Below are positions 34,276 to 37,688 of a DNA stretch of 64,000 bases, one piece after another. Origin of the DNA: Sideroxydans sp. CL21 (GTDB lineage: Bacteria > Pseudomonadota > Gammaproteobacteria > Burkholderiales > Gallionellaceae). The stretch covers positions 2,306,501-2,370,500 of the forward strand of contig NZ_LR699166.1 of NCBI RefSeq assembly GCF_902459525.1. Direction: 5' to 3'. Each line of letters starts with the position of its first letter. Positions within the stretch are counted from its first letter, which is position 1. Made by a program: the position numbers and the translations under genes. The notes under the pieces were generated by a model. It was not told the DNA's origin and did no database searches. It saw nothing but the letters and a program-made list of their open reading frames with translations.

Positions 34276-34824
34276 TCAAACGATCTTAGTGCTGTTATTC
34301 AAAATGTTAACAACACCTTGCAGGGCGATTTGCACCGATTTCGCGCGCACCGCATCGCGGTCGCCGGAAAGCTGATGGCAAGCCGTGCGCACGGTATCGT
34401 TGGTCGCCCAGGCGAACCAGACCATGCCGACCGGCTTTTCCGGCGAGCCGCCGGTGGGCCCGGCAACGCCGCTCACCGAGACCGCCACCTGGGCGCGGCT
34501 GTATTGCAACGCACCGTCCGCCATTTCGCGCACCGTCTGCTCGCTCACGGCGCCATGCGCCTCCAGCGTATCCGGTGATACGCCCAGCATTTCTTCTTTC
34601 GCACCGTTGGAGTAAGTCACGAAGCCGCGATCAAACCAGTCGGAACTGCCCGATATCATGGTAACCGCCTGCGCCACACCACCACCCGTGCAGGATTCCG
34701 CCGTCACCAGCATCATGCCATGCTGCTTGAGCGCGGCGCCAACCTGCTGCGCCAACAGTTTCCCCGAATCCTGTCCGCCTGCAACTGCGGGACGCGCCCT
34801 CTTCTTTGCCCGCTTCATCTTCAT
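34276..34824 (-). CDS. pncC: Nicotinamide-nucleotide amidase (CinA C-terminal domain family)
   Basis: 182 residues containing a single CinA C-terminal domain: TAESCTGGGVAQAVT with the catalytic Ser, GFVTYSNGAKEEMLGV, and VSVSGVAGPTGGSPEKPVG. The enzyme deamidates nicotinamide mononucleotide in NAD recycling. The first ~17 residues are a basic Lys/Arg-rich tail that may not belong to the core fold. Its start overlaps the metZ stop by four bases, and it ends just before the recA promoter region. Confidence 0.92.
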   Translation of the reverse strand: MKMKRAKKRARPAVAGGQDSGKLLAQQVGAALKQHGMMLVTAESCTGGGVAQAVTMISGSSDWFDRGFVTYSNGAKEEMLGVSPDTLEAHGAVSEQTVREMADGALQYSRAQVAVSVSGVAGPTGGSPEKPVGMVWFAWATNDTVRTACHQLSGDRDAVRAKSVQIALQGVVNILNNSTKIV

Positions 34825-35987
34825 AACCCCCTGACCAGGTCGTTCTGGATATCGATTACCGCTTCCAGACCTACCGCAATGCGGATCAGCCCGTCACCGA
34901 TGCCCGCCGCCGCCCGCGCTTCGGGCGAGATGCGCGCATGCGTCGTGGTCGCCGGATGGGTGATGGTGGTCTTGGTGTCGCCCAGGTTCGCGGTGATGGA
35001 AAGCAACTTGGTGTTGTCGATGACGCTCCAGGCAGCAGCCTTGCCGCCCTTCACCTCGAACGCCACGATACCGCCGCCGGTCTTTTGCTGTTTCTGCGCC
35101 AGTGCATATTGCGGGTGCGACGGCAGGCCGGGATAGAACACGCGCGCCACATTGGGCTGCTTCTCCAGCCATTGCGCCAGTTGCAGTGCATTCGCGCTGT
35201 GCGCGTCCATGCGCAGCTTGAGTGTCTCGATCCCTTTCAGGAACACCCACGCGTTGAACGCACTCATGGTCGGGCCGGTGGTGCGCAAGAAACCGTACAC
35301 AGGCTCCATCAATTTTTTGCTGCCCAGCACCGCGCCACCCAGCACGCGTCCCTGGCCATCAATGTACTTGGTCGCGGAATGGATCACGATGTCCGCCCCC
35401 AGCTCCAGCGGCTTTTGCAAGATGGGCGTGCAGAAACAGTTGTCCACTGCCAGCAGCGCGCCGCAGGATTTCGCCACCGCAGCAATCGCCGCGATATCGG
35501 AAATCTCGGTCAGCGGATTGGACGGCGTCTCCAGAAAGAACAGCTTGGTATTCGTGCGCACCGCTGCCTGCCATTGCCCGACATCGGTGGCGGAAACGAA
35601 AGTCGTTTCCACCCCGAATTTTTTCAGTACGTTGTTGAACAGGTTCACCGTCGAACCGAAGATGCTCTGCGACGCAACCACATGGTCGCCTGCCTTGAGC
35701 AAGCCCATGCAGGCGGACAGGATGGCGGACATGCCGGATGACGTCGCCACGCATTGCTCTGCACCTTCCAGCGCGGCCAGTCGCTCCTCGAACATGGTGA
35801 CAGTGGGATTGGTAAAACGCGAGTAGATGTTGCCCGGCTCCTCGCCGATGAAGCGTTTTGCTGCCTGTTCCGCGCTGTCGAAGGTAAAGCTGGAAGTCAG
35901 GAACAGCGCCTCGCTGTGCTCATGGAACTGGCTGTGCACGCTGCCCGCGCGCAGCGCCAGCGTTTCCGGTTGGTATGATTCGGTCAT
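34821..35987 (-). CDS. metZ: O-succinylhomoserine sulfhydrylase
   Basis: 388 residues, Cys/Met-metabolism PLP family. MetZ makes homocysteine directly from O-succinylhomoserine and sulfide, bypassing cystathionine. The PLP lysine is Lys207 in IHSATKYIDGQGR; SSGMSAI (cofactor-phosphate region) and DNCFCTP are family segments. The GxVLGG context and the missing cystathionine-lyase features favour MetZ over MetB/MetC. AAGGA lies before the ATG. Its leader carries a SAM-II riboswitch and a terminator, so high SAM should reduce its expression. Confidence 0.93.
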   Translation of the reverse strand: MTESYQPETLALRAGSVHSQFHEHSEALFLTSSFTFDSAEQAAKRFIGEEPGNIYSRFTNPTVTMFEERLAALEGAEQCVATSSGMSAILSACMGLLKAGDHVVASQSIFGSTVNLFNNVLKKFGVETTFVSATDVGQWQAAVRTNTKLFFLETPSNPLTEISDIAAIAAVAKSCGALLAVDNCFCTPILQKPLELGADIVIHSATKYIDGQGRVLGGAVLGSKKLMEPVYGFLRTTGPTMSAFNAWVFLKGIETLKLRMDAHSANALQLAQWLEKQPNVARVFYPGLPSHPQYALAQKQQKTGGGIVAFEVKGGKAAAWSVIDNTKLLSITANLGDTKTTITHPATTTHARISPEARAAAGIGDGLIRIAVGLEAVIDIQNDLVRGL

Positions 35988-36030
35988 GTTCTTCGTCCTT
36001 GCGGCCTGTCCACGCCGACAGTGCCGCCAA

Positions 36031-36066
36031 TAAAAAACCCGGAAAGCTTAGCGCTAAACCGGGTTT
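36031..36066 (-). terminator. Intrinsic terminator between the SAM-II aptamer and metZ
   Basis: On the minus strand AAACCCGG (36059-36066) pairs with CCGGGTTT (36035-36042) and is followed by a run of Ts. The loop contains TTTAGCGCTAA. The TTTAGC of this loop (36053-36058) is complementary to GCTAAA of the aptamer (36074-36079), so an alternative antiterminator pairing is possible when SAM is absent. Confidence 0.8.
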
Positions 36067-36123
36067 CCCTCGCTTTAGCAGTATTTGTAACGCGCCCGCA
36101 AGCTGTTCCTCAAATCGGCGCAG
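36067..36123 (-). ncRNA. SAM-II (SAM-alpha) riboswitch aptamer upstream of metZ
   Basis: Read on the minus strand, the segment carries the SAM-II landmarks in order: a GCGC P1 arm (36118-36121) followed by CGATTTG, then CTTGC in the loop, the returning GCGC arm with GTTACAAAT, and GCTAAAGCGAGG at the 3' end. This matches the SAM-II class I remember from metA, metX and metZ leaders of alphaproteobacteria, where the 3' GCTAAA strand closes the pseudoknot over SAM. It lies in the 174-base gap after purF and before metZ, the expected gene for this class. Pairing was checked by eye only. Confidence 0.85.
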
Positions 36124-36127
36124 ACAG

Positions 36128-36157
36128 AAAGTAACACCCTCCGCCGCGAATTGTCAA
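36128..36157 (-). promoter_or_regulatory. Candidate sigma-70 promoter for metZ
   Basis: A perfect minus-strand -35 TTGACA (36152-36157) is followed after 18 bases by TACTTT (36128-36133), a weak -10. Transcription from it would begin just upstream of the SAM-II aptamer, which would then be the very 5' end of the metZ message. It begins five bases after the purF stop. Confidence 0.45.
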
Positions 36158-36161
36158 CGCA

Positions 36162-37688
36162 TCACATTGAGCTCGCGCTCATCACCAAATCCAGTTCCAG
36201 CTGGTCCTCTTCCAGGGTCTTGTTCGCTTTGCCGCCCGCACGCGCGGCTTCGACACGATCCAGATAGTCGGCCGTGATGTCGCCGGTGATGTATTCGCCG
36301 TCGAAACAGGAGCAGTCGAATTTGGTGATATTCGGGTTGCACTTCTGCACCGCCGCCTTCAGGTCGTCGAGATCCTGGTAGATAATGCGGTCGGCGCTGA
36401 TCTCGCGGCAGATCTCTTCGTCGGTGCGGCCGGTGGCGATGAGTTCCTTGCGGCTGGGCATGTCGATGCCGTAAACGTTGGGGAATTTCACGGGTGGTGC
36501 GGCGGACGCGAAATACACTTTGCGCGCCCCGGCATCGCGCGCCATTTGCACGATCTCGCGGCTGGTGGTGCCGCGCACGATGGAATCGTCCACCAGCAGC
36601 ACGTTCTTGCCCTTGAATTCGACGCTGATGGCATTGAGCTTCTGGCGCACTGATTTCTTGCGCATCGCCTGACCCGGCATGATGAAGGTGCGGCCGATGT
36701 AGCGGTTCTTCACGAACCCTTCGCGGAACGGGATGCCGAGATGGTTGGCCAATTGCAGCGCACTGGGGCGGCTGGAATCGGGGATGGGAATCACCACGTC
36801 GATGTCGTGATCCGGCCATTCGCGCAGAAGCTTTTCCGCCAGGTATTCACCCATGTTCAGGCGCGTCTCGTACACCGAGATGCCGTCGATCATCGAATCG
36901 GGGCGTGCGAAATAGACATACTCGAAGATGCAGGGATTCAGTTCCGCATGCTGGGCACACTGCTGGCTGTGGAAGTTGCCGTCGAGATCGATGAACACCG
37001 CTTCTCCCGGCGCGATGTCGCGCAAGAACTTGAAGCCCAGCGTATCCAGCGCGACGCTTTCGGACGCCACCAGATAATCAACACCTTTATCCGTATTGGC
37101 CGAGCCCACCACCAGCGGCCGGATGCCGTGTGTATCGCGGAATGCCAGCAAACCGTAACCCGAGATCATCGCTACCACCGCATATGCGCCGCGACAGCGG
37201 CGATGCACGGCGGCAACCGCAGCAAAAATGATCTTTGGATCGAGACGAAAGTTCGTCGCATTCGCTTGCAGTTCGTGTGCCAGCACATTGAGCAGCACTT
37301 CCGAATCCGAGTTTGTGTTCACATGGCGCATGTCATCGAGAAACAATTCCTTTTGTAGCTGCGCCGTGTTGGTGAGGTTGCCGTTGTGCCCGAGCACCAC
37401 GCCGAACGGCGAGTTCACGTAGAACGGTTGCGCCTCGTTGTGATCGACAGCGGAGCCTGCCGTCGGATATCGCACATGGGCGATGCCGGCATTGCCGGTC
37501 AGCGCGCGCATGTTGCGGGTGCGGAACACATCGTGTGCAAGCCCGTTGCCTTTATGCAAATGGAAGGTATTGCGCTCCAGCGTGGCAATGCCTGCCGCAT
37601 CCTGCCCGCGATGTTGCAACACTTGCAGCCCGTCATACAGCAATTGATTGACCGGACTTTGCGAAACGACACCTAGAATCCCACACAT
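36162..37688 (-). CDS. purF: Amidophosphoribosyltransferase
   Basis: 508 residues. PurF makes phosphoribosylamine from PRPP and glutamine, the committed step of purine synthesis. Cys2 (MCGILGVV) becomes the N-terminal glutaminase nucleophile after Met removal, so no propeptide is present. The PRPP site is [13 protein letters not shown]; the C-terminal part has [15 protein letters not shown]. It sits after cvpA, the classical cvpA-purF pair, 34 bases apart, and before the separately controlled metZ. Confidence 0.97.

Follow-up and report, generated by a model that had tools for sequence, protein, structure and literature searches.

A SAM-II riboswitch and a predicted SAM-dependent terminator before metZ of Sideroxydans sp. 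CL21

The leader of metZ in the stretch of 64,000 nucleotides analysed here (the window) raises the question of whether SAM stops transcription of a methionine-synthesis gene through a riboswitch of the SAM-II class, and through which pairings. The gene encodes O-succinylhomoserine sulfhydrylase (721.9 bits, where the family model has its cut-off at 522); its product shares 97% identity with MetZ from a Sideroxydans MAG, and the named matches next in rank come mostly from Gallionellaceae. Read 5' to 3' on the minus strand, the order is purF, TTGACA, an extended -10, the SAM-II aptamer, an intrinsic terminator and metZ. The sequence-only reading had placed promoter, aptamer and terminator in this succession, and all of its coordinates proved correct. 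The features are as follows, from upstream to downstream:

36162-37688, minus strand: purF, the gene upstream of the metZ leader (TIGR01134, 532.7 bits)
36152-36157, minus strand: -35 box TTGACA, from the sequence; most metZ leaders of Gallionellaceae have TTGAC(a/g) in this position
36128-36136, minus strand: extended -10, TG-T-TACTTT (TG at 36135-36136, hexamer at 36128-36133), from sequence and conservation
36058-36131, minus strand: SAM-II aptamer (SAM_alpha, RF00521), extent of the covariance-model match
36117-36121, minus strand: P1 5' strand GCGCC, pairing with 36092-36096
36098-36103, minus strand: presumed P2 5' strand GCTTGC (pseudoknot), invariant in 49 leaders
36092-36096, minus strand: P1 3' strand GGCGC
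36072-36079, minus strand: P2 3' strand GCTAAAGC, invariant in 49 leaders, containing the SAM-contacting GCTAAA (36074-36079)
36053-36079, minus strand: antiterminator hairpin GCUAAA.CG.GG-(GAAA)-CC.CG.UUUAGC (-12.1 kcal/mol), from cotranscriptional folding, energy and conservation
36053-36058, minus strand: TTTAGC, antiterminator partner of GCTAAA
36032-36066, minus strand: intrinsic terminator (hairpin -15.2 kcal/mol, six U)
36059-36066, minus strand: terminator 5' arm AAACCCGG
36043-36058, minus strand: terminator loop
36038-36042, minus strand: CCGGG, which starts the terminator 3' arm
36032-36037, minus strand: terminator U-run
35996-36000, minus strand: Shine-Dalgarno-like AAGGA, 8 bases before the ATG, outside aptamer and terminator
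34821-35987, minus strand: metZ, O-succinylhomoserine sulfhydrylase, 388 aa (NCBIfam NF006003 and TIGR01325, both above cut-off)

The purF reading frame stops 5 bases upstream of TTGACA. Both promoter boxes are recognisable in most relatives; the -10 hexamer TACTTT is weak and separated from the -35 box by an 18-nt spacer, with the TG one base upstream of the hexamer. Judging from the sequence, transcription is predicted to start a few bases 3' of the -10, at the foot of P1. The metZ promoter was not listed in a consensus promoter scan of the window because its -10 hexamer is weak, and the leader terminator was missed by a simple terminator scan of the window because its loop is long (16 nt) and capped. 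This terminator may additionally halt putative read-through from purF.

The assignment of the aptamer to SAM-II was examined with the RF00521 covariance model, which agrees with the sequence-only reading in its E-value, although the score stays just under the curated threshold. The model aligns over its full length (1-79) at 36058-36131 with no non-standard pair, giving an E-value of 1.5e-6 for the stretch and 3.2e-6 for the whole genome; the score of 35.6 bits is 0.4 bits below the gathering cut-off of 36, which is why an Rfam search of the window at the default cut-off reported nothing and the match surfaced on a rerun by E-value. The P1 stem GCGCC/GGCGC encloses a loop beginning with GATTTG, matching the GAUUU loop feature of SAM-II, both P2 strands with the conserved UUGC and GCUAAA are present, and the gene context fits the class as well, with metZ after this copy and metX after a second one. 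We take GCTTGC to be the P2 5' strand, the P2 pairing being assigned from the known SAM-II fold. The metZ leader shares with RF00521, as described by Corbino et al. 2005 (PMC1273637), the P1 and pseudoknot core, GCUAAA, a promoter near P1, a terminator between P2 and the gene, and a methionine-synthesis target. It differs from the consensus in the deletion of four positions after GCUAAAG, which probably helps to hold the score below the cut-off. By these features the metZ leader is predicted to carry a SAM-II riboswitch aptamer that binds SAM.

RF00521 matches twice in the whole genome (3.8 Mb), both times below the cut-off, before metZ and before metX. The second copy (G000:C1:3702963-3703037, about 2464-2538 of L033; 33.8 bits) precedes metX-metW, in which metX is of the succinyl type (NF047916). 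Since these two sub-threshold matches in 3.8 Mb stand before both enzymes that make homocysteine from homoserine, they are not due to chance. In the metX leader the parts come in the order seen before metZ, including a separate TTGACA, antiterminator and terminator, and its P1 shows a compensatory change from GCGCC/GGCGC to GUGCC/GGCAC. A SAH riboswitch (RF01057; G000:C1:141060-141151, 45.9 bits) was also found in this genome, which therefore probably uses different RNA classes to sense SAM and SAH.

We consider it very probable that the SAM-II riboswitch is a transcriptional OFF switch for metZ, in which termination would depend on SAM. The elements of such a platform are present, namely an intrinsic terminator between aptamer and metZ and an antiterminator that excludes both the aptamer and the terminator. 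RNA polymerase would start just upstream of P1 and make the aptamer. With SAM bound, the pseudoknot P2 (GCUUGC with GCUAAAGC) would be locked and GCUAAA unavailable, so that the intrinsic terminator would be the next hairpin to form and transcription would end about 90 nt from its start. When SAM is scarce, GCUAAA would pair with UUUAGC as soon as the latter is transcribed; CCCG of the terminator 5' arm would then be buried in the antiterminator, whose stem of CG/CG and GG/CC is closed by a GAAA loop, and the polymerase would continue into metZ. The decision would be under kinetic control, in the interval of roughly 20 nt that separates the finished P2 from the finished antiterminator.

According to stepwise folding, P1 forms first and the hairpin at 36053-36079 is added once 36053 has been transcribed; this antiterminator is the fold of lowest energy while transcription proceeds from 36053 to 36038, and the terminator is so from about 36035. 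With GCUAAA and CCCG both taken up in this hairpin, neither P2, which requires the former, nor the terminator, which requires the latter, can form alongside it. The pairing of GCTAAA with TTTAGC had been proposed from the letters alone and is borne out: it belongs to the minimum-energy intermediate, and its duplex reaches -11.5 kcal/mol against a shuffle mean of -4.6, a value attained by 5 of 5000 shuffles. The antiterminator is stronger than had been claimed, as stepwise folding shows the hairpin additionally capturing the terminator 5' arm. In the metX leader the same succession is obtained, via GCUA/UAGC plus AGCG/CGCU. The whole metZ leader shows no unusual stability against shuffles (z -1.07), which is expected of a switch with a pseudoknot. 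The folding program leaves out pseudoknots, and for this reason the SAM-bound side is modelled on the known SAM-II fold. The SAM switch of the sequence-only reading is thus supported by the covariance match, cotranscriptional folding, the metX duplicate and comparative enrichment, and its terminator step with SAM is one that we infer. A candidate arrangement in which GCUAAA/UUUAGC is a mere pseudoknot with the terminator, leaving the arms uncontested, was dropped, as the CCCG arm is paired too in stepwise folding.

Among 80 Gallionellaceae metZ loci, the leader lies close to metZ in 46 and about 630-690 bases upstream in five (L040, L042, L048, L057, L101), where another gene apparently separates the two. 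No recognisable SAM-II leader was found in the other 29 (L052, L055, L064 and L081 are examples), and it has apparently been lost in many Gallionella. The terminator loop of the L106 metZ leader is enlarged by an insert of several tens of bases. In an alignment of 49 Gallionellaceae leaders, the window included, 99.6% of the antiterminator pairs are kept, compared with at most 61% for slid versions of the pairing, and the sole common variation is a change from U-A to U-G. No double compensatory change in the antiterminator occurs among the 49 leaders, in which GCUAAA is invariant; covariation is not visible because this strand is fixed, as expected for a ligand contact, and on its own the alignment would speak for conservation, not covariation.

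The pairing was further examined in 67 dereplicated leaders of the order, using GCUAAA with the following bases against the 5' half of each leader's own terminator. The aptamer 3' strand pairs with its own terminator at -9.54 kcal/mol; shuffled terminators give -7.07 (sd 0.21, a distance of more than 11 sd) and swapped ones -9.04, with the own-terminator value reached by 7 of 3000 swaps. UUU(A/G)G(C/U) occurs in 18 of the 67 terminator hairpins, where 3.8 to 5.8 would be expected, an enrichment of three to five times; these order-wide statistics account only partly for relatedness among the leaders. The fetched DNA yielded five terminators as potential controls, too small a set for comparison. 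Many terminators of the order are without strong pairing of the GCUAAA type, and some seem to use other partners.

One such partner is the other aptamer strand, which in a subset of leaders looks like the antiterminator partner, instead of GCUAAA or in addition to it, as with GUUCAGCUUGC and GCAAGCUGAAC in L011. The antiterminator might accordingly be a different or compound helix, in which the P2 5' strand (CAGCUUG) pairs with AAGCU of the terminator loop, with GCUAAA/UUUAGC nested in it or not; for the window we regard this as unlikely. Across the order, the cognate pairing of that strand with its own terminator beats 2000 of 2000 swaps, with a flat reversed control, and AAGCU shows little or no variation across the 49 leaders, a conservation that is, however, also explained by an AGC/GCU stem within the terminator loop. 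Fewer than ten leaders have the helix in strong form (L009, L011, L019 and L060 are examples); in the window, by contrast, the pairing ends at AGCUU with no extension upstream, and the minimum-energy fold uses GCUAAA/UUUAGC. The P2 5' strand was therefore rejected as the main antiterminator partner, because the window lacks its signal, which is real in a minority of relatives.

Structural studies of SAM-II have mostly treated it as a translation switch, although in surveys the terminator is the platform most frequently seen with it in alpha- and betaproteobacteria. The aptamer could be real and act mainly on translation or RNA stability, above a constitutive, unswitched terminator that, for example, ends purF read-through. 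In the best-studied SAM-II (metX, structure 2QWY), the ribosome-binding site is sequestered within P2 (PMC10907184); the SAM-II of Sinorhizobium meliloti metA has a terminator after it, but prediction gave no antiterminator driven by SAM-II (PMC9373788); and in the window the end of purF lies directly upstream of the leader. However, 72 bases separate P2 from the Shine-Dalgarno-like site at 35996-36000, which is not part of the terminator either, and P2 therefore cannot hide it directly; a specific antiterminator, conserved and recurring before metX, likewise argues against an unswitched terminator. This explanation is accordingly quite improbable, and the transcriptional OFF switch is preferred. 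For S. meliloti metZ, the same gene, SAM binding was predicted to bring about Rho-independent termination, with a short leader RNA as the product, and an RNA of about 100 nt increases in high SAM in vivo (PMC9373788). That switch differs in belonging to an alphaproteobacterium and in having in vivo data, whereas the one in the window is known from sequence.

The sequence-only reading had also called this arrangement notable in a betaproteobacterium, which does not hold. RF00521 matches at an E-value of 0.001 or better in 117 of 250 genomes of the order (47 of them passing the Rfam cut-off) and in 89 of 274 genomes of the class (24 passing). Corbino et al. 2005 noted that many SAM-II aptamers are followed by terminators, together with the placement of promoters (PMC1273637), and the 2007 survey of Barrick and Breaker described SAM-II as the class most often linked to terminators in alpha- and betaproteobacteria (PMC2258182). 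The metZ locus is thus an ordinary member of SAM-II and of low novelty, as the class is common in the order and both the terminator link and the logic of S. meliloti metZ had already been published. Sub-cut-off loci were fetched for 62 matches: the full core with P1 is present in 58, of which 53 have a terminator and 47 are followed by metZ, metX or metH. That the metZ leader is no riboswitch and resembles SAM-II by chance beside an ordinary terminator can practically be dismissed in spite of its score of 0.4 bits below the curated cut-off, given the genome-wide E-value, the restriction of genome matches to metZ and metX, the frequency of matches in the order and the genes that follow the sub-cut-off cores. 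By short motifs or by eye, SAM-II in the order was also seen before metH (L028 and eight others), metK (L015, L178) and a metN-like ABC transporter ATPase (L205).

The same riboswitch appears to have been described under other names. Leyn et al. 2014 scanned proteobacterial genomes with Rfam models, with no SAM_alpha listed for betaproteobacteria, and presented a novel betaproteobacterial 'metXZ' element before metXW or metZ (PMC4239095). As described there, the element is like the present leader in having one stem and a pseudoknot built from conserved blocks, followed by non-conserved terminators; it differs in being called novel and in its other second conformation. By this published anatomy, the metXZ element appears to be this SAM-II riboswitch, and was probably called new because these copies escape the Rfam model when its own threshold is applied. 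The Burkholderia 'sRNA' Bp2_Cand287 was detected by RT-PCR; its published map shows it next to purF, metZ and metX, and a role as cis element in methionine metabolism was proposed (PMC3521395). Bp2_Cand287_SIPHT corresponds to Rfam RF02424, which is like SAM-II in its position before methionine genes but models the opposite strand: 29 of its 52 matches in the order overlap RF00521 matches, all antisense and none sense. Such overlaps occur in L203, L195:2768-2904, L194 and L199, among other loci. On the other strand of the strongest RF02424 match (L203, 107.5 bits) stands a SAM-II core in which an inserted hairpin separates P1 from GCUAAA; this strand also has a terminator and, downstream, a MetZ-like ORF. 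RF02424 (Bp2_287) therefore appears to model the SAM-II leader from the wrong strand. Its presence at the metZ locus as an sRNA in its own right was rejected, with only 14 bits on the plus strand and no match in the genome search.

Several leaders contain two SAM-II-like elements in tandem (L194, L197, L198 and L200, also L199 and L196), a standard one with its terminator followed by a variant of about GCGCCGAKTTAATCGACAACTTGC...GCTAAAGCG before a small ORF of about 100 aa starting with M(F/Y)DC; the variant type is also present in L206. In L194 and L200, where the small ORF was examined, neither Pfam nor NCBIfam gave a match. The ORF is followed by a MATE-type transporter in L194, L197, L198 and L200, with the family match run on L194 and L200. 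Two RF00521 matches stand in tandem before another gene in L201.

Taken together, the observation at the metZ locus is confirmed. For the wider group, we think it likely that betaproteobacterial SAM-II leaders are one widespread transcription-switch subfamily, mostly lying below the Rfam cut-off and renamed twice (metXZ; Bp2_287/RF02424), whose terminators often contain a mimic of one aptamer strand, so that the antiterminator can be read from the sequence. The short and explicit arrangement of aptamer, antiterminator and terminator, duplicated before metZ and metX, makes a good model for the transcriptional mode of SAM-II. More useful than the locus is the wider annotation gap: because most matches in the order and the class miss the Rfam cut-off, elements published as new in betaproteobacteria may be the old riboswitch.
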